35,378 nt of DNA. Origin: an uncultured Eubacteriales bacterium. GTDB taxonomy: Bacteria > Bacillota > Clostridia > Christensenellales > CAG-138. The position numbers were made by a program, and so were the translations under genes. The notes below the pieces were generated by a model that saw nothing but the letters and a program-made list of their open reading frames with translations, was not told the DNA's origin and made no database searches. The stretch covers positions 1 to 35,378 of the forward strand of contig ONNZ01000023.1 in assembly GCA_900319345.1 (NCBI GenBank), read 5' to 3'. Numbering within the stretch: position 1 is the stretch's first letter; each line of letters starts with the position of its first letter. Below are positions 752-18,602 of this stretch, piece after piece.

Positions 752-2497
752 TTACTTGTAGAGGCCGCGGTTGGTGTAGGTGGTGTGCAGCAGCTCGTGG
801 GCCTTATGGCTGCAGGGCTCGCCCAGGTAGTCCTTGTACAGCTTCTGGACTTCCGGATTCTCGTGGGACTTACGCAGCGGCATGTTGGCGTCCTCGCCAT
901 AGAGGCCGGCCGCGCGGATGGCCCGCACGTCGTGGAAGTTCTTGAAGTTGCTGGGCACGATGGGCTGACCGCCGCCGTTGACGCAGCCGCCGGGGCAGGC
1001 CATGACTTCGATGAAGTGATAGTCCTTCTCGCCCCGCTTGACCATGTCGAGGAGCTTGCTGGCGTTCTCCAGGCCGGAGGTGACCGCCACCCGGACCTTG
1101 AGGCCGTTCAGGTCGTACTCGGCTTCCTTGATGGCTTCGACGCCGCGGACGGCTTCGAACTCCACCTTCTCCAGGGTCTTGCCGGTGACCACTTCGTACA
1201 CGGTACGGAGGGCCGCTTCCATGACGCCGCCGGTGGCGCCGAAGATGTGGCCGGCGCCGGAGGCTTCGCCCAGCAGATCGTCCGCAACTTCGTCGGGCAG
1301 CTTGTCGAAGATGATGCCGGCCTTCTTGATCATGCGGGCCAGCTCACGGGTGGTCAGGGACACGTCCACATCGGGCAGGCCGTTGTGGCCCAGCTCAGGA
1401 CGGTTGCACTCGAACTTCTTGGCCGTGCAGGGCATGACGGACACGCAGAAGATGTCCTTGGGATCGATGCCCGCATGCTCGGCATAGTAGCTCTTCACCA
1501 GCGCGCCATACATGCCCTGGGGGGACTTGCAGGTGGACAGGTTGGGGATGAACTCGGGATAGTAGTGCTCGCAGAACTTGATCCAGCCGGGGCTGCAGGA
1601 AGTGATCTGGGGCAGGGGCCCGCCGTTCTGGATGCGCTGGATGAGCTCGGTGCCTTCCTCCATGATGGTCACGTCGGCGGCGTTGTCCACATCGAACACC
1701 TTGTCGAAGCCCAGACGGCGGCAGGCCGCGATGAGCTTGCCTTCCACGTTGGTGCCCATGGGGATGCCGAAGCACTCGCCGATCTGGACACGGACGGAGG
1801 GCGCGGGGGCGATGACCACATGCTTGGTGGGATCGGACAGAGCCTTCCAGACCTTGTCGGTGTCGTCCCGCTCGGTGAGGGCGCCGGTGGGGCACACCTG
1901 GATGCACTGACCGCAGTTCACGCAGCTGGTATCCGCCAGAGGCATCTCGAAGGGGCTGGACACGTGGGTCTTGTAGCCGCGCATGCTGGCGCCGATGACG
2001 TGGGCGTGCTGGACGTTTTTGCAGACCGCGATGCAGCGACGGCACAGGATGCACTTGCTGTTGTCGCGAATGAGGTGGATGGCGGACTCATCGAGATCCG
2101 GCTGCATGGGCTCGGCGGGACGGAACTTGTCGGGGTCGGCGCCGTATTCCTGGGCCAGGGTCTGCAGTTCGCAGTTGGTGGAACGGACGCAGCCAAGGCA
2201 GTCCATCCGGTGATTGGAGAGCATTAGCTCCAAGGTCATCTTGCGGGAAGCGCGCAGGGCGGGGGTGTTGGTCTGGACCTCCATCCCCTCGGCCACCTGC
2301 TGGAGGCAGGCCACGGGGTTGGAGCGGGCGCCCTTCACCTCGACCACGCACATACGGCAAGCGCCGATGGCGTTGATGTCCTTCAGGTAGCAGAGGGTGG
2401 GGATATGGACGCCAGCCTTCTCCGCCGCCATCAGTACAGTGTAATCAGAAGGGACCTCGACTTCGATCCCGTTGATCTTGACATGAACAGTATTCAT
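752..2497 (-). CDS. hydA: NADH-dependent [FeFe] hydrogenase catalytic subunit HydA (group A, trimeric type)
   Basis: This 581-aa catalytic subunit of a HydABC-type hydrogenase reversibly reduces protons using electrons from NADH/ferredoxin in the cytosol. Domains in order: plant-type [2Fe-2S] (C36, C47, C50, C64); His-ligated [4Fe-4S] (H96, C100, C103, C109); two [4Fe-4S] clusters (C149/152/155/159 and C192/195/198/202); the H-cluster domain with L1 TSCSPGW (299-305), L2 MPCTAKKFE (355-363) and L3 MACPGGCVNGGGQP (499-512); and a C-terminal small-subunit domain with RKSHENP. The start at 2497 has an ideal AAGGAGG at 2504-2510; the frame stays open further upstream into hydB but that extension is spurious. 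In L1 the second residue of the usual CC pair is Ser. This is the last gene of the operon, 11 bases after hydB. Confidence 0.96.
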   Translation of the reverse strand: MNTVHVKINGIEVEVPSDYTVLMAAEKAGVHIPTLCYLKDINAIGACRMCVVEVKGARSNPVACLQQVAEGMEVQTNTPALRASRKMTLELMLSNHRMDCLGCVRSTNCELQTLAQEYGADPDKFRPAEPMQPDLDESAIHLIRDNSKCILCRRCIAVCKNVQHAHVIGASMRGYKTHVSSPFEMPLADTSCVNCGQCIQVCPTGALTERDDTDKVWKALSDPTKHVVIAPAPSVRVQIGECFGIPMGTNVEGKLIAACRRLGFDKVFDVDNAADVTIMEEGTELIQRIQNGGPLPQITSCSPGWIKFCEHYYPEFIPNLSTCKSPQGMYGALVKSYYAEHAGIDPKDIFCVSVMPCTAKKFECNRPELGHNGLPDVDVSLTTRELARMIKKAGIIFDKLPDEVADDLLGEASGAGHIFGATGGVMEAALRTVYEVVTGKTLEKVEFEAVRGVEAIKEAEYDLNGLKVRVAVTSGLENASKLLDMVKRGEKDYHFIEVMACPGGCVNGGGQPIVPSNFKNFHDVRAIRAAGLYGEDANMPLRKSHENPEVQKLYKDYLGEPCSHKAHELLHTTYTNRGLYK

Positions 2498-2508
2498 TGG
2501 GTTCCTCC

Positions 2509-4302
2509 TTATTTCTTGCTGATGGCACCGAAGCGGCAGGTATCCATACAGGTACCGCACTTGATGCACTTGGCCTGATCGATGACGTGGGGCTGCTTCA
2601 CGGTGCCGGTGATGGCGTTGACGGGGCACTTGCGGGCGCAAGCCGTGCAGCCGCGGCACTTATCGGGATCGATCTCGTAGCGCAGGAGCTTCTTGCACAC
2701 GCCGGCGGGGCAGCGCTTGTCGACCACGTGGGCCACATACTCGTCGCGGAAGAACTTCAGCGTGGAGAGCACGGGGTTGGGCGCGGTCTGACCCAGGGCG
2801 CAGAGGGCGTTGGCCTGGATGTACTTGCAGAGCTCCTCCATCTTGTCCAGGTCCTCCAGCGTGCCGTTGCCGCTGGTGATCTTGTCCAGCATCTCCAGCA
2901 AGCGGCGGGTGCCGATACGGCAGGGGACGCACTTGCCGCAGCTCTCGTCCACGGTGAAGTCCAGATAGAACCGGGCCACGTCCACCATGCAGGTGGAGTC
3001 GTCGAGGACGATCATACCGCCGGAACCCATCATGGCGCCGATGCTCTTGAGGTTCTCGTAGTCGATGGGCAGATCCAGGAACTTGGCCGGGATGCAGCCG
3101 CCGGAAGGACCGCCGGTCTGAACGGCCTTGAACTCTCTCCCGTTGGGGATGCCGCCGCCGATATCGTAGATGATCTGGCGGAGGGTGGTGCCCAGAGGAA
3201 CTTCCACAAGACCGGTGTTGTTGATCTTGCCGCCCAGCGCGAACACCTTGGTGCCCTTGCTGCCCTCGGTGCCCATGGAAGCGAACCACTCGGCGCCCTT
3301 GAGGATGATCTGGGGGATGTTGGCCAGGGTCTCCACGTTGTTGATGATGGTGGGCTGACCAAAGAGGCCCTTGTTGGCGGGGAACGGCGGCTTGGTCTTG
3401 GGCTCGCCGCGGTTGCCCTCGATGGAGGTCAACAGAGCGGTCTCTTCGCCGCACACGAAGGCGCCGGCGCCCAGACGCACGTCGATGTCGAAATCAAAGC
3501 CAGTGCCGAAGATGTCCTTGCCCAGCAGGCCGTACTCACGGGCCTGACGGATGGCGATCTGCAGACGATGCACGGCGATGGGGTACTCGGCACGGACGTA
3601 GATGTAGCCCTGATTGGCGTTGATGGCATAGCCCGCGATGCACATGGCTTCCAGGATGGCGTGGGGATCACCTTCCAACACGGAACGATCCATGAACGCG
3701 CCGGGGTCGCCCTCGTCGGCGTTGCAGACCACGTACTTGTTGGGGGTCTGGTTGACCGCCGCGAACTTCCACTTGAGGCCGGTGGGGAAGCCGGCGCCGC
3801 CACGGCCGCGGAGGCCGGACTTGGTGACTACGTCGATGACCTGCTCACGGGTCATCTCGGTGAGGACCTTGCCCAGAGCGGAATAGCCGTCCATGGCGAT
3901 GTACTCTTCGATGTCCTCCGGGTTGATGACGCCGCAGTTGCGCAGCGCCACACGGAGCTGAGGCTTATAGAACTCGATATCCTTCAGCGTGGGGACCTCG
4001 ACCTTCTCGCCGCCTTCGGTGTCACGGTGCACCAGGCGCTCCACGATACGGCCCTTCAAAAGGTGCTCGGAAGCGATCTCAGGCACATCGGAGACCTTCA
4101 CGCGGGAGTAGAAGGTGCCATCGGGGTAGACGATCATGACGGGGCCCATCTCGCAAAGGCCGAAGCAGCCGGTGCGCACGACCTTGACTTCATCCTGAAG
4201 GCCCAGCTTGACGATCTCCTGCTCCATGGCTTCGGCGATCTTGGGGCTGTCAGAAGAGGTACAGCCCGTACCGCCACAGATCATTACATGCGTACGAATC
4301 AT
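2509..4302 (-). CDS. hydB: Hydrogenase NADH-binding flavoprotein subunit HydB (NuoF-like)
   Basis: This is the 597-aa diaphorase subunit of the HydABC hydrogenase. It exchanges electrons between NAD(H), FMN and iron-sulfur clusters. The N-terminal thioredoxin-like [2Fe-2S] domain has C9, C14, C46 and C50. The NuoF core follows, with the NADH/FMN loop GLRGRGGAGFPTGLKW, then CNADEGDPGAF and GAGAFVCGEETAL. A NuoF-type [4Fe-4S] site (SCGKCVPCR) comes next, and then a C-terminal 2x[4Fe-4S] ferredoxin (C549/552/555/559 and C579/582/585/589). The ATG at 4302 is preferred over the TTG at 4308 because the GGAGG at 4312-4316 is 9 nt from the ATG but only about 3 nt from the TTG. It lies between the ferredoxin-like gene and hydA. 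Confidence 0.95.
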   Translation of the reverse strand: MIRTHVMICGGTGCTSSDSPKIAEAMEQEIVKLGLQDEVKVVRTGCFGLCEMGPVMIVYPDGTFYSRVKVSDVPEIASEHLLKGRIVERLVHRDTEGGEKVEVPTLKDIEFYKPQLRVALRNCGVINPEDIEEYIAMDGYSALGKVLTEMTREQVIDVVTKSGLRGRGGAGFPTGLKWKFAAVNQTPNKYVVCNADEGDPGAFMDRSVLEGDPHAILEAMCIAGYAINANQGYIYVRAEYPIAVHRLQIAIRQAREYGLLGKDIFGTGFDFDIDVRLGAGAFVCGEETALLTSIEGNRGEPKTKPPFPANKGLFGQPTIINNVETLANIPQIILKGAEWFASMGTEGSKGTKVFALGGKINNTGLVEVPLGTTLRQIIYDIGGGIPNGREFKAVQTGGPSGGCIPAKFLDLPIDYENLKSIGAMMGSGGMIVLDDSTCMVDVARFYLDFTVDESCGKCVPCRIGTRRLLEMLDKITSGNGTLEDLDKMEELCKYIQANALCALGQTAPNPVLSTLKFFRDEYVAHVVDKRCPAGVCKKLLRYEIDPDKCRGCTACARKCPVNAITGTVKQPHVIDQAKCIKCGTCMDTCRFGAISKK

Positions 4303-4320
4303 TCTCAATATCCTCCGTTT

Positions 4321-4686
4321 TTATTCTGCGGCACCGATGGTGTATTCCGTGATGGGTTTCCCGCCAAGGATGTGCTCCTTGACGATCCGGGGGACCATGG
4401 CCGGCTTGACCTTCACATAGGTGACCCGCTCCTTGCCGCCCTCGAAGACCTCCACGATGGGCTCGAGCCGGCACATGCCGATGCAGCCGGTCTGGGTCAC
4501 GGTGGCGTTGTCGGCATGCTGCTTGCGGACTTCCTCCACAAAGGCGTTGAGTACGGGCCGGGCGCCGGCGGCGATGCCGCAGGTGGCCATGCCAACGACG
4601 ATCCGGATATCGCCGTTGTTCTCGCGGATAGCGACCCTATCCTTCATTTTGTTCCGAATCGCTGCAAGTTCCTCAAGACTTTTCAT
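4321..4686 (-). CDS. (2Fe-2S) ferredoxin domain protein, thioredoxin-like fold
   Basis: This 121-aa protein of the small thioredoxin-like [2Fe-2S] ferredoxin family is typically found beside clostridial hydB. It contains VGMATCGIAAGARPVL (C36) and TQTGCIGMCRLEP (C68, C72), followed by a beta-rich VEVFEGGKERVTYVKV and KPAMVPRIVKEHI tail. Only three cysteines lie at the expected cluster positions, so a complete four-Cys ligand set is not obvious; from memory this single-Cys first half is usual in the family. A likely role is an extra electron carrier or assembly/regulatory subunit of the hydrogenase; this is inferred from position. It has its own ribosome binding site (AGGAAAGG) after a 46-base gap from the ATPase gene. 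Confidence 0.85.
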   Translation of the reverse strand: MKSLEELAAIRNKMKDRVAIRENNGDIRIVVGMATCGIAAGARPVLNAFVEEVRKQHADNATVTQTGCIGMCRLEPIVEVFEGGKERVTYVKVKPAMVPRIVKEHILGGKPITEYTIGAAE

Positions 4687-4732
4687 AGTTGTTTTCCTTT
4701 CCTAAGTTTTTGGTTATGTAGTAAGCTTTCGC

Positions 4733-5284
4733 CTAAAAACCGTATTGTTCGTTCAAGCTTTCTCTGGCCCATTCCAGGACCTCGAAGCTGTTCAAGGGTA
4801 TCTCGTCTCCCAGGGCTTCCCTCATCTCCCGGGTGTCCAAGTGGACCATTTCCCCGTTAGGCAGCTCGTGCTCAAAGAGGAAATCCACGTCAGGACAGCC
4901 CTGTATGAGACTGATCAAAGTGGATACCACGTCCCCCAGGGGGGTGAAATCCATGTGATTCTTGTAGAAGAAAGCGGAAATGACCGTGCCATGGTCCTCC
5001 GGGCTCATGTCCCTGGTCCGGGACGTGATGGTCAGCTCTCCGCCGGTCTGCTCCGCCGCCAGCTTGAACAGGGGGATGCCCATGCCCACCTTCCGGGTCT
5101 TGCGGGTGGTGGAAAAGGGGTCCATCACCGTGGCCAGGAATTCCGGCGACATGCCTCTGCCGTCATCCTTGATGGTGATGCGCAGCGTCTCGTCCGTTTC
5201 CGTCAGCAAGATCTCGATGAGAGACGCTTCGGCGGAGATGGAATTCTGCACGATATCCAGAATGTTCAGCGACAGTTCCTTCAT
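4733..5284 (-). CDS. GHKL-type ATP-binding protein (histidine-kinase-like ATPase domain, no DHp domain)
   Basis: This 183-aa protein has a histidine-kinase-like ATPase fold at its N terminus. The N-box helix is LNILDIVQNSISA, the G1 box is KDDGRGMSP, a phosphate-binding segment is TTRKTRKVGMGIPLFKLAAEQTGG (G2-like) and a G3-like strand is GTVISAFF. No phosphoacceptor-histidine (DHp), sensor or receiver domain is present. The ~70-residue C-terminal part is unassigned. It may act as a protein kinase, anti-sigma-like switch or ATP-dependent conformational partner of the sensory hydrogenase; this is inference. Its ATG overlaps the stop of the PHP gene by 4 bases (ATGA), indicating translational coupling. 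Confidence 0.85.
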   Translation of the reverse strand: MKELSLNILDIVQNSISAEASLIEILLTETDETLRITIKDDGRGMSPEFLATVMDPFSTTRKTRKVGMGIPLFKLAAEQTGGELTITSRTRDMSPEDHGTVISAFFYKNHMDFTPLGDVVSTLISLIQGCPDVDFLFEHELPNGEMVHLDTREMREALGDEIPLNSFEVLEWARESLNEQYGF

Positions 5285-6000
5285 GCTTTCTTCTCCAGCA
5301 TGGCAAAGAGAGCTTCCCGAACGGCCTCCTCCCCCGCCTCCGGACTTACGTCCAGATGCACGCAGAAGCTGCCATCGCTGATCTCCCAGAGCCGATGGGC
5401 GTCTGAGGAGACCAGGATCTTCCGTCCTCCCGCCAAATCGCGCTTGTCCTCGTCATGGACTTCGGCCAGGGTGAACACCGGTTCCTCCGGGAAGAAGCCC
5501 AGCACCGCCAGGAGCCCGTTGGCCTCCCGGTCGATATGGGCCGGGTAGCAGACCCCGCCCATGGATCGGACCAGCTTCGCCCCCTCCTCGATGGTCAGAG
5601 AGGTGGCTGCCGGCAGGAACCAGGGATCGTTGCCGATGGGCACGTCCTGCTCGCCCATGATGATCTGCTCGCCGAATATCGCCGGTTTGTTCTTCACCTT
5701 CATGCGCTTCTCTTCCACCAGCTTGTCGAAGGCCAGGGCTGTGTCCAGCTTGGGGAACAGACAGACCATGTGGACGTCCTCCGCCGTGGTCAGCTCTATA
5801 CCCGGCACGGGCACGATGCCGTATTCCCGACAGGCGGCGAAGAAGGCGGGACAGTTCTTTGCCGTGTTGTGATCCGTCAGCGCCATGATCCTGAGCCCAT
5901 TGAGATATCCCATCCCCGCGATGTTGCAGGGGGTCATATCGTCCTCCGCGCAGGGAGACAGGCAGGAGTGGATGTGCAGATCGACGGCAAAAGCGTTCAT
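5281..6000 (-). CDS. PHP-domain metal-dependent phosphoesterase
   Basis: This 239-aa PHP-superfamily phosphoesterase has DLHIHSCLSPCAEDD at residues 7-21 (first metal-binding HxH), ALTDHN, the glutamate of GIELTTAEDVH, CYPAHIDR and the C-terminal SSDAH. All canonical metal-ligand motifs are therefore intact. Such enzymes hydrolyse phosphoesters or nucleotides with a trinuclear metal site; the substrate here cannot be read. The chosen ATG at 6000 overlaps the upstream DRTGG gene's stop by 4 bases; an in-frame start 27 bases earlier would extend into that gene. PHP proteins are recurrent neighbours of group D sensory hydrogenase genes, which suggests a signalling phosphatase or nucleotide-cleaving role (inference). 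Confidence 0.87.
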   Translation of the reverse strand: MNAFAVDLHIHSCLSPCAEDDMTPCNIAGMGYLNGLRIMALTDHNTAKNCPAFFAACREYGIVPVPGIELTTAEDVHMVCLFPKLDTALAFDKLVEEKRMKVKNKPAIFGEQIIMGEQDVPIGNDPWFLPAATSLTIEEGAKLVRSMGGVCYPAHIDREANGLLAVLGFFPEEPVFTLAEVHDEDKRDLAGGRKILVSSDAHRLWEISDGSFCVHLDVSPEAGEEAVREALFAMLEKKA

Positions 6001-6323
6001 GAGAGCAGGGAGGCTACCTTGGCGCACAGCTCGAAGACGGACAAGGGGGAACGGTAGAAGTTGAGATCGTTGTCCACCGCCGCCTCCAGGGCCGCATCGT
6101 CCGGGGTCACGTCCTCCGCGAAGATGACCATGGCCGCGTCCGTGAGGGAGCAGACTGCCGGTACGTTGCGGTTGGACATGATGGTGATCCAGCAGTCCCC
6201 GCTCTGCGCCCGACCCATGACCCAGCTCAGCAGATCGCCGGCATAGCCGCCGGTGACCGGCCGATCCTCGGCCTCGTGCAGGGGAACGAGCCCCAGCGTA
6301 TCCCTGATCTCAAATACGGTCAT
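5997..6323 (-). CDS. Small DRTGG-like / HPr-kinase-N-like domain protein
   Basis: This 108-aa stand-alone protein contains PVTGGYAGDLLSWVMGRAQSGDCWITIMSN at residues 22-51, then NVPAVCSLTDAAMVIFAEDVTPDD. The pattern matches the DRTGG family (the domain found between CBS and phosphotransacetylase modules and in HPr-kinase N-domains): a 'V.GG.aGDLLS.vm' segment, a buried 'v..aal.d.a.vi' core and a terminal helix. Such domains are probable small-ligand or protein-interaction modules without known catalysis. The ATG at 6323 overlaps the stop of hydS by 4 bases, so it is translationally coupled to the sensory hydrogenase. A second member of the same family lies at 8066-8404. The partner or ligand is unknown. 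Confidence 0.75.
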   Translation of the reverse strand: MTVFEIRDTLGLVPLHEAEDRPVTGGYAGDLLSWVMGRAQSGDCWITIMSNRNVPAVCSLTDAAMVIFAEDVTPDDAALEAAVDNDLNFYRSPLSVFELCAKVASLLS

Positions 6324-7612
6324 GACTTCTTCTCCATTTCTTCGCTCATGAGTTTCTTCAGCTGTTCCCGCATATGGACGATGCACTCGTCGATGTTCGC
6401 CTCGCCCTTCACCACGTCCTCCGCGAAGGCGCGGCAGGTAGGCGCGCCGCAGGACCCGCAGTCTAAAGCCGGCAGGCTCTCATGGATGTTCTCGATGTCC
6501 GCCATCATGCGGATGGACTCGAACCGGCTCACGTTCAAAGCGGATACGTTGGCGAAGGTGGCCGGCTTCACGGTCAAGATATCCTCCGGCACGTCCACGT
6601 CACCGTTTTGCCGAGGCACATGGTTGAGGCTCACGGGCATATACCGGCGCAGGGTCTGCAAGCGGACCTGGGCGATATAGGGGTTCTCCACCGTCAGCAC
6701 ACCGCCCACGCAGCCGCCGCTGCAGGCGTCCAGCTCAGCAAATTCCACGCTGGGGAAGTTGCCCATCTCGATGCTGTCCAGCACACGGATCACGTTTTCG
6801 ATGCCGTCGGCCGCCAGGTATCTGTCGTTCATCAGCGCGGAACCCTCGCCGCCGGAAGACGCCCAGCCCAAGCCGATCATGCCGGTCTCGCTGGTGATCT
6901 TGGGCGATTCCTTGGGTTTCATGGCGTTGAGGAGCTTGAAATACACCTCGCTGATGGCTACCACGTAGTCCACGCAGGGGGTCTCGTCCTCCTTGTCCCC
7001 GTTCTTGACCCAGCTGAACTTGGCCGGGCAGGGGCTGATGAATACCGTCTTGATATCCTCTTCCTTCAGCTCCGGATGCTTCTTCATGGCCTCTTCCTTG
7101 GCCATCCGGCCGGCGAGCTCTATGGGTGGCATCAGCGGCACGATATGGTCGATGAGGGACGGGAAGCGAATGGTGATGAGACGCACCACCACCGGGCATG
7201 CGGAGCTGATGGCCGGACGAGGGATGTCCGTGCGCTTCATATAGCGCCGGGTGTACTCCGTGATGATCTCCGCGCAGCGGGAAACCTCGAACACGTCGTT
7301 GAACCCCATATCCAGGAGCCCCTGCAGCACGTAATCCACGTCCGTCACGTTGATGAACTGGCCGAAGAGCGAAGGCGCCGGAAGCGCGATCAGATACTTG
7401 GAACGGTCCAGATCCTCCAGACTGTCGCAGATGGCCCGCTTGGCCTTGTAGGGGCAGACGCGGATACATTCGCCGCAGTCGATACATTGGAGGGCGTTGA
7501 TGGCGGCATGTCCGTCACGGATGCGGATGGCTTCCGTAGGGCAACGCCTCAAACAATGGGTGCAGCCCTTGCATTTATCCAGATCCAGTGAAACGGAGTG
7601 CCTGTAATCCAT
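6320..7612 (-). CDS. hydS: Putative sensory [FeFe] hydrogenase HydS (group D-like)
   Basis: This 430-aa protein has two N-terminal [4Fe-4S] motifs (C14/17/20/24 and C43/46/49/53), an H-cluster domain with atypical motifs, and a C-terminal four-cysteine cluster domain (DCGSCGAPTC: C385, C388, C393, plus C410). L1 is SSACP (136-140) instead of TSCCP: the proton-relay cysteine is Ala138 and the cluster ligand C139 is kept. L2 is SPCPAKFSW (193-201) instead of MPCxxKxxE. L3 is LDACSGGCVGG (294-304) without the following GGGQP. The four cluster ligands (C139, C195, C297, C301) remain. This architecture without a PAS domain matches the group D HydS described from Thermoanaerobacter mathranii. It is likely an H2 sensor rather than a catalyst. 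The ribosome binding site AAAGAGGAAAG precedes the ATG. Confidence 0.87.
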   Translation of the reverse strand: MDYRHSVSLDLDKCKGCTHCLRRCPTEAIRIRDGHAAINALQCIDCGECIRVCPYKAKRAICDSLEDLDRSKYLIALPAPSLFGQFINVTDVDYVLQGLLDMGFNDVFEVSRCAEIITEYTRRYMKRTDIPRPAISSACPVVVRLITIRFPSLIDHIVPLMPPIELAGRMAKEEAMKKHPELKEEDIKTVFISPCPAKFSWVKNGDKEDETPCVDYVVAISEVYFKLLNAMKPKESPKITSETGMIGLGWASSGGEGSALMNDRYLAADGIENVIRVLDSIEMGNFPSVEFAELDACSGGCVGGVLTVENPYIAQVRLQTLRRYMPVSLNHVPRQNGDVDVPEDILTVKPATFANVSALNVSRFESIRMMADIENIHESLPALDCGSCGAPTCRAFAEDVVKGEANIDECIVHMREQLKKLMSEEMEKKS

Positions 7613-7632
7613 GCTTTCCTCTTTCTTAGCGA

Positions 7633-8061
7633 TTACCTGTTTTCAAAGCCAAGTTCGATGGTCGTCCCCTGGCCCACAACGCTGTCGATGCCGAAGGTGT
7701 CGGAGTATCGCTTCATGTTGGGCAAGCCCATGCCGGCGCCGAATCCCAATGCGCGGATGTTGTCCGGCGCGGTGGAATACCCTTCCTGCATGGCCTGCTC
7801 CACGTCCTTGATGCCGGGGCCGGTGTCCTTCAGCACGATCCGAATGGTCTTGTCGTCCACATAGATGTCGGCGTCGCCGCCGTTGGCGTGGATGACCATG
7901 TTGATCTCGCCCTCGTACATGGCGATGGAGACCCGCCGGATGGTTTCGGGAGAGCAGCCCAGCTGCCGAAGAAGGCGCTTCACCTTGACGGAGGCTTCTC
8001 CTGCGGAGGTGAAGTTCCCGCCGTCTACGTCATAATGCACATGCAACGGTTCTGCGCTCAT
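7633..8061 (-). CDS. RsbW/SpoIIAB-like serine kinase-type ATP-binding protein
   Basis: This 142-aa single-domain GHKL ATPase is similar in size and layout to anti-sigma factor/serine kinases of the RsbW-SpoIIAB type. The N-box is AMYEGEINMVIHANGG (E, N and H in register), the G1 box is LKDTGPGIKD and the G2 box is GFGAGMGLPNMKRYSD; the GTTIELGF strand closes the Bergerat fold. In that family the protein phosphorylates an STAS anti-anti-sigma factor or sequesters a sigma factor; neither partner gene is present in this operon. The start at 8061 (AGGTGATCCC upstream) follows the DRTGG gene's stop by 4 bases; a longer in-frame start would overlap that gene. It directly precedes hydS, suggesting it receives or transmits the H2 signal (inference). 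Confidence 0.85.
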   Translation of the reverse strand: MSAEPLHVHYDVDGGNFTSAGEASVKVKRLLRQLGCSPETIRRVSIAMYEGEINMVIHANGGDADIYVDDKTIRIVLKDTGPGIKDVEQAMQEGYSTAPDNIRALGFGAGMGLPNMKRYSDTFGIDSVVGQGTTIELGFENR

Positions 8062-8065
8062 GGGA

Positions 8066-8404
8066 TCACCTGTGCAGGCCAGCCTCGTACAGCCTCCCGC
8101 TGGCCTCATACATGGTGAGGGCGGTGGCCAATACGGCGATATGGCTCAGTTTCGCGAGCGCCACCACTTCCTCCGCAGGCTCCTTGCCCCGGACGAAAAG
8201 GATGCAGCTCATGTCCAGCATCAGCGCGGTACGCACGGCCTGGGGATTGTTGAGCCCCGTGAGAAGAAGCGCCTGATCCTGCGCGTAGGCAAGGACGTCG
8301 CTCATCATGTCGCTGCTGAACGCGGAATCGATATCCTCGTCCAGCATCTCCTCTCCCGTATATACCTTTGCACCGACCAAGCGGGCGACTTCTTCTAATC
8401 TCAT
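8066..8404 (-). CDS. DRTGG-domain protein
   Basis: This 112-aa protein has the DRTGG-type layout: LEEVARLVGAKVYTGEEML at residues 3-21, DIDSAFSSDMMSDVLAYAQ at 24-42, then LLLTGLNNPQAVRTALMLDMSCILFVRGKEP and a C-terminal helix containing 'TALTMYEASGRLYEAGL'. The 'SDMMSDVLA' and 'LTGLxxPQ.vrTA.m.d' elements are typical of stand-alone DRTGG proteins encoded in hydrogenase operons. No catalytic residues are recognisable; a ligand-sensing or scaffold role is inferred. It begins 7 bases after hydC and is followed after 4 bases by the RsbW-like ATPase. It is a distant paralog of the gene at 5997-6323, so the operon encodes two such modules. Confidence 0.82.
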   Translation of the reverse strand: MRLEEVARLVGAKVYTGEEMLDEDIDSAFSSDMMSDVLAYAQDQALLLTGLNNPQAVRTALMLDMSCILFVRGKEPAEEVVALAKLSHIAVLATALTMYEASGRLYEAGLHR

Positions 8405-8411
8405 AGCAGTG

Positions 8412-8912
8412 TTACTCTGCGCGGACCTTATCGATGATACCCTTCACATCGGCGGGGACCAGACGGCCATACACCTGATCGTCGATCATCATGACCGGCG
8501 CGAGGCCGCAGCAGCCCAGGCAGCGAGCCGCTTCCAGGGTGAACATGCCGTCAGGCGTGGTGTGGCCGGCCGTGACGCCCAGGAGCTTCACCAGCTCGTC
8601 CAGGATGTCCTGGGAGCCTTTCACATAGCATGCGGTACCAAGGCATACACGGATAAGATGCTTTCCTTTGGGCTCCAGACTGAACCAGGCGTAGAAGGTG
8701 GAAACACCATAGACCTGTTCGAGGGAGCAGCCCAGCCCCTCTGCGATCATCGTCTGCACCTCTATGGGCAGATACCCATAGATATCCTGCGCTTGCTGCA
8801 TCACGGGCATCAGCGCGCCGGGCTTACCCTTGTGATCCGCAATGACCTTTTCGAGCGCAGCTTTCTGCTCGGCCGTGCCAGTGAATGGGATCGTGGTCTT
8901 CGTACTAGTCAT
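8412..8912 (-). CDS. hydC: Hydrogenase subunit HydC (NuoE-like [2Fe-2S] protein)
   Basis: This 166-aa NuoE/24-kDa-type thioredoxin-like ferredoxin is the third subunit of the HydABC complex and mediates electron transfer to the HydB flavin. The helical N-terminal region (LMPVMQQAQDIYGYLP, GVSTFYAWFSLEPKG) precedes the [2Fe-2S] ligands C90, C95, C131 and C135 in 'VCLGTACYVKG' and 'ARCLGCCGLAP'. The ATG at 8912 is preferred over the one at 8918: AAGGAGG at 8919-8925 directly abuts the earlier ATG, while 6 nt separate it from the later one. It is the first gene of the ten-gene operon, about 80 nt downstream of the predicted transcription start. Confidence 0.95.
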   Translation of the reverse strand: MTSTKTTIPFTGTAEQKAALEKVIADHKGKPGALMPVMQQAQDIYGYLPIEVQTMIAEGLGCSLEQVYGVSTFYAWFSLEPKGKHLIRVCLGTACYVKGSQDILDELVKLLGVTAGHTTPDGMFTLEAARCLGCCGLAPVMMIDDQVYGRLVPADVKGIIDKVRAE

Positions 8913-8932
8913 ACACATCCTCCTTATTCGTA

Positions 8933-8997: not shown

Positions 8998-9026
8998 ATT
9001 CTACCACACATAATTTGTCTTGCCAA
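8998..9026 (-). promoter_or_regulatory. Sigma-A-type promoter of the hydrogenase operon
   Basis: On the minus strand, TTGGCA (9026-9021) and TAGAAT (9003-8998) are separated by exactly 17 bases. Each hexamer has one mismatch to TTGACA/TATAAT. This predicts transcription from about 8991 and a leader of about 79 nt before hydC. Confidence 0.8.
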
Positions 9027-9030
9027 TAGA

Positions 9031-9044
9031 TTAGCATTTGCTAA
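9031..9044. promoter_or_regulatory. Palindromic operator candidate upstream of hydC
   Basis: TTAGCATTTGCTAA is a palindrome (arms TTAGCA/TGCTAA around a 2-bp centre). It lies 4 bases upstream of the -35 box of the hydrogenase promoter and is centred near -47. The position suits an activator or repressor site. It does not match the Rex consensus (TTGTTAA-N4-TTAACAA) when aligned on its centre. The regulator is unknown. The site also lies upstream of the divergent gene at 9181. Confidence 0.45.
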
Positions 9045-9113
9045 CTGACGCATTTGAATAGGAAATTCTACATAGATTTCAAAATAAAATATGAAAATGG
9101 GCGGATTTGGGTC

Positions 9114-17834: not shown

Positions 17835-18602
17835 CTAAATATACTTTTTCAGCCGTTCCAGGGCCCCCTTTTCCAGCCGGGACACCTGGGCCTGGGAGAT
17901 GCCGATCTCCCGGCTCACCTCCATCTGGGTCTTCATCTGAAAATACCGCAGCTTCACGATCCGCTGCTCCCGTTCGTTCAGATGGCGGATGCCCTCCTCC
18001 AGGGCGATGCTGTCCAGCCATCGCCCCTCCCCCGATGCCTCGTCCCGGATCTGGTCGATCACATACAGGGCGTCCCCATCCTCGTGAAATACGGGCTCGA
18101 ACAGGGACACCGGGTCCACCACCGCGTCCAGGGCGTAGACCACCTCCGCCTCGGACATATCCATCTCCTTGGCGATCTCCCCCACCGTAGGCTCCCGGTT
18201 CAGTTCGTCGGTGAGCCGCTTCTTCACCTGCATAGCCTTGCCCGCCACGTCCCGCAGGGACCGGGACACTCTAAGCGCCGTATAGTCCCGCAAAAACCGC
18301 CGGATCTCCCCGACGATCATGGGCACCGCGTAGGTGGAAAAGCGGACGTTTTGGGATATGTCGAAGTTGTCGATGGCCTTCATGAGGCCGATGCAGCCCA
18401 CCTGGAACAGATCGTCTGCCTGCTCCGAACGGTTGGAAAACCGCTGTATCACCGAGAGCACCAGCCGCAGATTCCCCGTCACCAGCTTCTCCCGCGCCGA
18501 TACGTCCCCCGCCTTCGCCTGTTCCAGCAGCCGGCGCATTTCGCTCTGGCTCAACGTGGGCAGCGTGGACGTGTCCACGCCGCAGATCACTACCTTGTTC
18601 AA
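17835..18602 (-). CDS. sigG: RNA polymerase sporulation sigma factor SigG
   Basis: This 255-aa late forespore sigma factor switches on forespore genes after engulfment. The N terminus VICGVDTSTLPTLSQSEM is the SigG signature (compare VEICGVDTSKLP in Bacillus). Region 2 follows, with LVTGNLRLVLSVIQRF, DDLFQVGCIGLMKAIDNFD and VRFSTYAVPMIVGEIRRFLRD. Region 3 has REPTVGEIAKEMDMS, and region 4 has EREQRIVKLRYFQMKTQMEVSREIGISQAQVSRLEK. The start is TTG at 18602: an in-frame TGA sits immediately upstream, and AGAGAGG at 18611-18617 is 8 nt away. It stands alone here; the usual spoIIGA and sigE neighbours are absent. It shows that the organism belongs to a spore-forming lineage. Confidence 0.95.
   Translation of the reverse strand: MNKVVICGVDTSTLPTLSQSEMRRLLEQAKAGDVSAREKLVTGNLRLVLSVIQRFSNRSEQADDLFQVGCIGLMKAIDNFDISQNVRFSTYAVPMIVGEIRRFLRDYTALRVSRSLRDVAGKAMQVKKRLTDELNREPTVGEIAKEMDMSEAEVVYALDAVVDPVSLFEPVFHEDGDALYVIDQIRDEASGEGRWLDSIALEEGIRHLNEREQRIVKLRYFQMKTQMEVSREIGISQAQVSRLEKGALERLKKYI

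Follow-up and report, generated by a model that had tools for sequence, protein, structure and literature searches.

The hydrogenase operon of the window

The window, that is the whole stretch of 35,378 nucleotides analysed here (contig ONNZ01000023.1 of GenBank assembly GCA_900319345.1, from an uncultured Eubacteriales bacterium), carries on its minus strand a ten-gene hydrogenase operon, which begins with the start of hydC at 8918 and ends with hydA at 752 (Table 1). In this operon the genes of a HydABC-type hydrogenase stand on both sides of the gene of a putative sensory [FeFe] hydrogenase, HydS, and of five signalling-type genes, and the subject of this paper is which of their products would receive the signal of HydS. 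The original prediction, made from the sequence of the window, had listed the ten genes in this order, and all were found. Its mention of many 4-base overlaps was overstated: three of the nine junctions (HydS/DRT2, DRT2/PHP and PHP/GHKL) do overlap by 4 bases, whereas at the remaining six, given the start codons chosen here, the genes are about 4 to 46 bases apart. The gene calls are mechanical open reading frames, the starts of which may be off.

Pfam and NCBIfam together name nine of the ten products, the exception being DRT2. Above the Pfam cut-off are HydC, HydB, DRT1 (PF07085), the RsbW-like ATPase (PF13581), HydS, the PHP protein (PF02811) and the GHKL ATPase (PF02518); the ferredoxin-like product of fdx is weakly assigned (24.3 bits against PF01257 with a cut-off of 24.8; NF041613 at 3e-9, below its cut-off). 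HydA scores 887 bits against NF040763 (group A6; cut-off 765), and in the company of HydB and HydC it has the sequence marks by which an electron-bifurcating HydABC complex is predicted. Relatives of bifurcating hydrogenases that use only NADH exist (PMC8924675). As in the known electron-bifurcating HydABC complexes (group A3 of HydDB, A6 of NCBIfam), for example that of Thermotoga maritima, HydA, HydB and HydC are full length; the window operon differs from these in being split by the sensor genes and in having hydC first.

Pfam gave no match to sigma factor, STAS or response-regulator families among the ten operon products, in agreement with what had been predicted. Distant from the operon, at 17835-18602 of the window, there is a gene for a sporulation-type sigma factor, which by eye is sigma-G-like.

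Table 1. Features of the hydrogenase operon and of the region before it (window positions).
Feature	Position	Strand	Evidence
Inverted repeat GTTAGCAAATGCTAAT (pattern RTTAGCNNNNGCTAAY), putative operator	9030..9045	-	alignment, genus pattern search
Predicted sigma-A-like promoter: TTGGCA 9026-9021, 17-base spacer, TAGAAT 9003-8998	8998..9026	-	sequence, alignment
hydC, 2Fe-2S NuoE-like subunit of bifurcating hydrogenase	8412..8918	-	PF01257 1.8e-51
DRT1, stand-alone DRTGG-domain protein	8066..8404	-	PF07085 2.9e-9, above cut-off
SpoIIAB/RsbW-like ATPase of the GHKL family, candidate for direct receipt of the signal from HydS	7633..8061	-	PF13581 2.7e-11
hydS, group D (M2e-like) putative sensory [FeFe] hydrogenase	6320..7612	-	PF02906 4.3e-31, PF04060
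DRT2, second DRTGG-fold protein	5997..6323	-	AlphaFold model and Foldseek
PHP-domain phosphoesterase	5281..6000	-	PF02811 6.2e-7
GHKL ATPase without HisKA	4733..5284	-	PF02518 2.1e-14
fdx, 2Fe-2S thioredoxin-like ferredoxin	4321..4686	-	PF01257 3.1e-5
hydB, NuoF-like flavoprotein subunit	2509..4302	-	PF01512 1.5e-47, PF10589 3.2e-34
hydA, catalytic [FeFe] hydrogenase, group A6 of NCBIfam	752..2497	-	NF040763

Gene order in other genomes and the two modules

At E ≤ 1e-20, a limit that lets in other hydrogenase groups, HydS matches were present in 216 of 398 genomes of the phylum. Neighbourhoods were compared at 172 loci from the phylum genomes, 44 named records and the window, 168 of them with a full HydS (L080, L164, L182 and L198 are without one); L019, L026, L029 and L030 had been dropped as duplicates. 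The set includes 120 regions picked from the best-scoring HydS matches listed, and the sample leans to close relatives of HydS. Since species may overlap between the phylum genomes and the named records, the loci are not independent.

Among loci with enough flank, the RsbW-like gene is found at most 500 bases upstream of HydS in 159 of 165 and DRT1 upstream of it in 131 of 152; on the downstream side are DRT2 (151 of 164) and PHP (126 of 152). For the other genes the count covers 135 loci in which the flanks are long or hydB occurs: nearby are GHKL (122/135), HydC and HydB (118/135 each) and fdx (112/135), fractions that are biased upward because the 135 loci take in every locus with hydB. The commonest complete order, found in 41 loci, is DRT1-RsbW-HydS-DRT2-PHP-hydC-GHKL-fdx-hydB-hydA. 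The hydC-first arrangement of the window is a minority: it is complete in 13 of the 168 loci, the window included, and present in its first nine genes, up to hydB, in 5 more, among them Candidatus Eisenbacteria (L192) and Candidatus Fermentibacteria (L193). The cassette, meaning the signalling genes that travel together, was also seen in Sumerlaeota (L190) and Marinilabiliales (L194). The conservation check that had been proposed for the gene order thus came out in its favour; an order unique to this genome is ruled out, and because the arrangement recurs in many families it is far beyond chance.

The orders vary among loci, and for this reason we regard the interleaving in the window as one arrangement of two modules. 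Judged by gene neighbourhood, DRT1-RsbW-HydS-DRT2-PHP is a sensor module conserved as a unit, and hydC-GHKL-fdx-hydB-hydA is the second module. The original prediction had HydABC interleaved with signalling genes; the order is real, and two modules describe it better than a deliberate interleave.

At 15 loci the genes of the HydS module run on one strand and those of HydABC on the other. GHKL stays with HydABC in nine of these (L137, L139, L176, L177, L178, L184, L186, L195 and L197, of which L176 and L177 are from one species) and is fused to PHP inside the HydS operon in the other six. At L295 (genome G037) HydS (80 and 69 residues) and PHP (89 residues) are left as short open reading frames only and hydC-GHKL-fdx-hydB-hydA is intact; no RsbW of the cassette family was found in this genome at E ≤ 1e-20. 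Because of the opposite-strand loci and the decayed L295, GHKL and fdx are to be assigned mainly to HydABC. We rejected GHKL as chiefly a partner of HydS, since it accompanies HydABC in nine of the 15 loci and survives the decay of HydS in L295. From the five signalling proteins that had been proposed as partners of HydS we therefore retain RsbW, both DRTs and usually PHP, and leave GHKL mostly to HydABC. In six loci (L101, L104, L106, L127, L133 and L134) of the clade with the PHP+GHKL fusion, HydA is in two open reading frames of about 312 and 355-359 amino acids.

HydS is a group D hydrogenase by sequence

HydS of the window has N-terminal 4Fe-4S clusters, an H-domain and a C-terminal FeS domain; Pfam matched Fer4-type families, PF02906 and PF04060 only, and a PAS domain was absent. 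The subclass to which TamHydS of Thermoanaerobacter mathranii belongs, group D (M2e), is marked by the loss of C299, a hydroxyl residue in place of M353 and the loss of M497 (Leu in TamHydS) (PMC8163306). In the numbering of CpI, the C299 position is A138 in the window HydS, and in the 170 rows listed of 171 aligned HydS rows it is A, S, F, T, N or a gap, never Cys. The M353 position is S193, with Ser or Thr in 166 of the 171 rows. The M497 position is Asp 295, hence replaced, but not by Leu as in TamHydS; across the family Q, L, N and D are commonest at this position, and Met occurs in 3 rows. The C-terminal motif Cx2Cx4Cx16C matches exactly at residue 385, its four Cys being kept in 168-169 of 171 rows, and the Cys ligands of the H-cluster are present in 169-170 of 171. 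The window HydS thus carries every group D (M2e) sequence feature tested, and the assignment as group D that had been made from the sequence of the window agrees with all features examined; the sensing of H2 is putative.

TamHydS shares with it the absence of PAS, the lack of Cys at C299, Ser at M353 and the Cx2Cx4Cx16C motif (PMC8163306, PMC13104023). It, too, has a bifurcating group A hydrogenase and a histidine-kinase-like ATPase encoded in its vicinity: its gene is upstream of the bifurcating hydrogenase and flanked by the gene of this ATPase and an AraC gene, the route of the signal being left open (PMC8163306). H2 was found not to reduce the C-terminal cluster, and in 2026 the interaction partner was called open (PMC13104023). 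The group C HydS proteins of T. maritima and Ruminococcus albus are likewise putative H2 sensors encoded together with a catalytic hydrogenase; they have a PAS domain, the mark of group C that Pfam did not find in the window HydS, and for R. albus a phosphatase subunit has been named, neither of which occurs in this operon (PMC10055695, PMC6776011). In Clostridium thermocellum kinases, phosphatases or PAS sensors are encoded upstream of bifurcating hydrogenases (PMC3492117). That signalling genes lie beside such hydrogenases was therefore, as the original prediction had it, already in print in general terms (PMC3492117, PMC8163306).

Two loci (L283 and L284) have HydS in two open reading frames within otherwise complete operons, which may reflect a frameshift, an error of sequencing or real decay. 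At two others the group D operon has in its neighbourhood a different second HydS fused to a histidine-kinase-like ATPase (L050:11969-14272 and L068:12143-14479), from which it follows that two types of hydrogenase sensor can coexist. A megablast search of hydS against phage records gave no match.

The RsbW-like ATPase and the two DRTGG proteins

The nearest solved relatives of the RsbW-like ATPase are SpoIIAB and RsbW, with profile matches to the PDB entries 1til/1th8 at about 1e-11. Invariant in 28 aligned rows are E50, N54, D79, G81, G83, G106, G108, G110 and G112, which we take to be the N-box (E50..N54), the DxGxG motif (D79-x-G81-x-G83) and the glycine-rich G2 box (G106-G112), with the roles that they have in SpoIIAB; on these residues the ATP site of this SpoIIAB-like ATPase is complete. 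With the anti-sigma kinases SpoIIAB and RsbW it has in common the GHKL fold family, the ATP-site residues and the nearest PDB sequences; it differs in lying below the family cut-off, in being encoded with DRTGG proteins and HydS instead of STAS protein and sigma factor, and in sometimes carrying a CBS pair. Neither the STAS antagonist nor the sigma factor of SpoIIAB/RsbW partner switching was found among the ten operon products or the conserved cassette genes.

DRT1 scores 37.2 bits against PF07085 (cut-off 25.2). DRT2 had no Pfam match by sequence; its AlphaFold2 model (mean pLDDT 97.7) was matched by Foldseek to DRTGG domains, namely those of CBS-pyrophosphatase (3l2b, 3l31) and of AF1212 (2ioj), with HPr kinase as a weaker match. 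CBS-pyrophosphatase, which is reported to respond to adenine nucleotides, thus has the same DRTGG fold, again associated with CBS domains; in the cassette, by contrast, DRTGG forms two small stand-alone proteins, and any CBS pair belongs to the ATPase. Both DRTs have an invariant Asp-x-x-Ser (D32/S35 in DRT1, D30/S33 in DRT2; 24 rows each), and our guess is that its Ser could act like the serine of STAS proteins.

The ATPase as candidate receiver of the HydS signal

Co-occurrence was examined in the 398 genomes, one per species, from a list compiled by hand. With a limit of E ≤ 1e-45, which was chosen after seeing the data and makes Fisher p values for these counts descriptive, group D HydS is present in 160 of them, and the RsbW-like family in 158 of these 160. 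In the two that lack it (G166 and G319) a HydS copy has on its upstream side a contig end at a distance of about 120 bases or less. Among the 238 genomes without HydS the ATPase family occurs in 11, one of which (G236) could have lost HydS to the contig end at which its RsbW lies. Six of 165 loci are without RsbW in the 500 bases upstream of HydS, and in one of them (L137) it is about 800 bases away. RsbW and HydS are also found together with no DRT or PHP at the locus (L039, L043, L052, L128 and L146); in genome G126 the cassette is on two contigs, RsbW-HydS (L052) on one and DRT1-DRT2-PHP-GHKL (L294) on the other.

Fusions link the same neighbours: DRT1+RsbW in 8 loci, which form no clade in the weakly supported HydS tree, RsbW+HydS in 2, HydS+DRT2 in 2, PHP+GHKL in 6 and GHKL+fdx in 1; Pfam confirms those at L153, L109, L116, L050 and L101. 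Furthermore, six operons of the order DRT1-RsbW-DRT2-PHP-GHKL (L276, L277, L278, L279, L282 and L292) have no HydS, and in these the RsbW protein has an N-terminal CBS pair. A CBS-RsbW also occurs alongside HydS (L280, L281 and L032). HydS as the sensor, as originally proposed, thus stands for operons of the window type and not for these six, in which the ATPase carries the CBS pair.

Fusions, strong co-occurrence and the swap of the sensor make the ATPase the lead: they suggest that the SpoIIAB-like ATPase is the direct partner of the sensor. In this our account differs from those of TamHydS, since here it is this ATPase that is indicated by the conserved cassette, by the fusions and by the swap of the sensor.

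There are several observations on the other side. GHKL, present in 154 of the 160 HydS genomes and in 15 of the 238 without HydS, co-occurs with HydS nearly as well as RsbW does, and the lead of RsbW over DRT2 as neighbour is small (159/165 versus 151/164). The RsbW+HydS, HydS+DRT2 and PHP+GHKL fusions are each confined to one clade. In the other five of the six loci without RsbW in the 500 bases before HydS (L082, L085, L087, L090 and L099), which form one clade, HydS has no adjoining RsbW; four of these five genomes hold the ATPase family elsewhere, and the fifth is G166. Partial correlations of distance matrices with HydS were 0.54 for DRT1, 0.52 for PHP, 0.50 for DRT2, 0.47 for RsbW and 0.38 for GHKL (54/75 loci after thinning) and pick out no single partner. 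Adjacency and fusion demonstrate a functional link, which need not mean binding. The ATPase reaches 61.5 bits against TIGR01925, the SpoIIAB equivalog model, the cut-off of which is 135; the canonical SpoIIAB of the same genome, encoded beside a sigma factor on another contig, reaches 197.4 bits. The Asp-x-x-Ser of the DRTs may be structural. Finally, three loci (L286, L287 and L288) have RsbW and one or two DRTs but no HydS and, as judged by length, no CBS pair, which means that some cassettes are without a visible sensor.

Exchange of neighbours

The genes next to the cassette change. It is followed by Rnf genes at L113 (rnfC, D and A confirmed), L129 (rnfC) and L280 (rnfC and A), with no HydABC in the stretch examined at any of the three, and at L281, where Rnf was recognised by reading only; Nfn-like genes are near the cassette at L287. 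A histidine kinase and an OmpR-type regulator are encoded upstream in one family (L039, L043, L052 and L146, confirmed for L146), an OmpR-type regulator upstream of RsbW-HydS at L128, and CheW at L052, L145 and L148. A cassette that stays the same while the redox enzymes beside it vary looks more like a regulator than like a subunit of an enzyme; in our reading it is a signalling cassette whose sensors can be exchanged and which would serve redox enzymes.

Side observations at these loci concern the OmpR-type regulator of L128 (6155-6856), the receiver of which by eye seems to be without the usual phospho-acceptor Asp, and a partial HydB-like match of RnfC size after hydA at L045, L062, L069, L096 and L110, where Rnf may lie downstream.

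The changing neighbours also bear on a role in maturation, in which HydS, the DRTs, PHP and the ATPases would assemble, repair or protect HydABC and no signal would be passed. Accessory ferredoxin-like proteins are known in HydABC-type operons. The close association with HydABC (118 of 135 loci have hydB nearby, although all hydB loci were placed in this set from the start) and the persistence of GHKL and fdx beside HydABC where HydS has decayed (L295) would suit such a role, which does not account for cassettes that stand beside Rnf with no HydABC in the stretch (L113, L129 and L280), nor for the CBS pair in place of HydS. At its active site, moreover, HydS shows the residue changes that mark putative sensory enzymes (PMC8163306). 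We consider the maturation role unlikely.

PHP protein and GHKL ATPase

In 23 PHP rows D7, H9, H11, D43, H44, E69, H77, H155, D200 and H202 are invariant; they are presumably the expected metal site, which is intact. Relatives of PHP in the PDB that have a named function act on nucleic acids (an exoribonuclease, EndoQ and PolC). In the GHKL protein Pfam found no HisKA/DHp phosphoacceptor domain, by which histidine kinases are recognised. Foldseek with its AlphaFold model (pLDDT 89.8) ranked the N domain of MutL/PMS2 first and topoisomerase VI-B next; sequence profiles of the PDB gave histidine-kinase ATPase domains as best (2.1e-15) and MutL at about 2e-5. The protein would therefore be MutL-like by predicted fold and histidine-kinase-ATPase-like by sequence profile, two rankings that differ. 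A MutL/PMS2-like fold would suggest an ATP-driven clamp.

In one form of the relay that the original prediction had envisaged, the DRTGG proteins would receive phosphate from both ATPases and lose it again through PHP. The PHP+GHKL fusion (6 loci of one clade) would fit a kinase/phosphatase pair, and the histidine-kinase-like sequence profile of GHKL, the intact metal site of PHP and the invariant Asp-x-x-Ser of both DRTs are consistent with it. We nevertheless hold this relay to be decidedly improbable: GHKL is without HisKA and in fold closest to MutL/PMS2, it mostly follows HydABC and not the DRTs, and the functionally named relatives of PHP in the PDB act on nucleic acids.

The upstream repeat and possible transcriptional control

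Upstream of the hydC promoter, the repeat GTTAGCNNNNGCTAAT is separated from the -35 box by three bases. It is kept in 11 of 11 aligned rows (the window and ten relatives), the flanks of which have diverged, and was not seen in nine further hydC-first loci of the same alignment. The pattern RTTAGCNNNNGCTAAY occurs in 12 of 12 genomes of the genus with 1-3 sites each, the reversed pattern used as control in none. Other sites precede DUF3793 genes (L201, L206, L212 and L225, with Pfam confirmation at L201 and L212 alone), one adjoins an HMA-domain gene (L223) and one is close to FeoA (L220), and those at L207, L208, L218, L222, L224 and L226 adjoin genes without an assigned identity. In the genome of the window the DtxR HTH family is matched three times, and close to one RTTAGCNNNNGCTAAY site there is a MarR gene. 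The position of the repeat suggests activation of the hyd operon, by a regulator that is perhaps metal-linked.

The redox regulator Rex is encoded in 30 of 192 loci. In 14 its gene is at most 400 bases upstream of a DRT gene, and in 8 (L036, L038, L045, L051, L055, L064, L153 and L295) the two overlap by 4 bases; its identity was confirmed for L051 and L279, and Rex domains for L288. As direct regulator of the window operon Rex was rejected, because the own genome (90% complete) gave no match to the Rex N-domain and the repeat differs from the Rex consensus.

Such linkages are the strength of a purely transcriptional account, according to which the RsbW-like protein would be an anti-sigma factor or anti-activator and H2-bound HydS would free or trap an unlinked sigma factor, Rex or response regulator, with expression of HydABC as the output. 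The nearest solved relatives of the ATPase, SpoIIAB and RsbW, include an anti-sigma factor, OmpR-type regulators lie upstream of RsbW-HydS at L128 and in one family, and the own genome has 11 matches to sigma-70 region 2. On the other hand, this genome lacks the Rex match, the conserved cassette genes include no sigma or STAS gene, the canonical SpoIIAB and a sigma factor are together on the other contig, and none of the other repeat sites that can be named precedes a redox enzyme gene, several further sites adjoining genes without an assigned identity. We therefore regard the transcriptional account as rather unlikely.

Proposed function

We give about an even chance to the view that the cassette informs the bifurcating hydrogenase about the redox state, H2 being sensed in this organism by group D HydS; in some other genomes the informed enzyme is probably Rnf or Nfn-like. 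The binding of H2 would change the shape of HydS and thereby alter the nucleotide state or the kinase activity of the bound RsbW-like ATPase, which would then swap partners with, or phosphorylate, DRT1 and DRT2. The two DRTs, with their invariant Asp-x-x-Ser, would stand in for the STAS proteins of SpoIIAB/RsbW systems. PHP and GHKL would pass the result to HydABC or another redox enzyme, which would be tuned after translation, and Rex or a response regulator could be a further outlet where linked. Everything past the step from HydS to the ATPase is inference; least certain are the DRT step and the final output.

In its widest form the proposal is more tentative, and we put it forward as a possibility well short of even: a widespread cassette, so far undescribed, in which a SpoIIAB-like ATPase and two DRTGG proteins replacing STAS are fed by HydS (H2) or by CBS domains (adenylates) and coupled via PHP and a second GHKL ATPase to the control of HydABC, Rnf or Nfn. 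In the extracts of the open-licence literature that were searched, among them PMC11837493, PMC5886521, PMC4676874, PMC4324140, PMC7471329, PMC10102598 and PMC11803613, the cassette is not described. The only joint mention of DRTGG and hydrogenase in such extracts concerns DRTGG in a lactate-growth gene, and none of the literature matches listed names RsbW or SpoIIAB with a hydrogenase. The first interpretation of the window is partly supported: it was right in the group D features and the conserved signalling genes, a deliberate interleave was not borne out, and HydS is not the sensor in every such operon.

New here are the analysis of the modules and a lead on how the signal leaves HydS, which makes the output of HydS directly testable. 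As late as April 2026 the signal output of group D HydS was stated to be open (PMC13104023); a specific candidate partner can now be named. The organisation is widespread, so that an operon combining hydrogenase and sensor is no one-off. If true, the proposal would show how fermenting anaerobes tie the level of H2 and the energy charge to their main electron-bifurcating enzymes, and it would have a bearing on rumen methane, syntrophy and biofuel strains.

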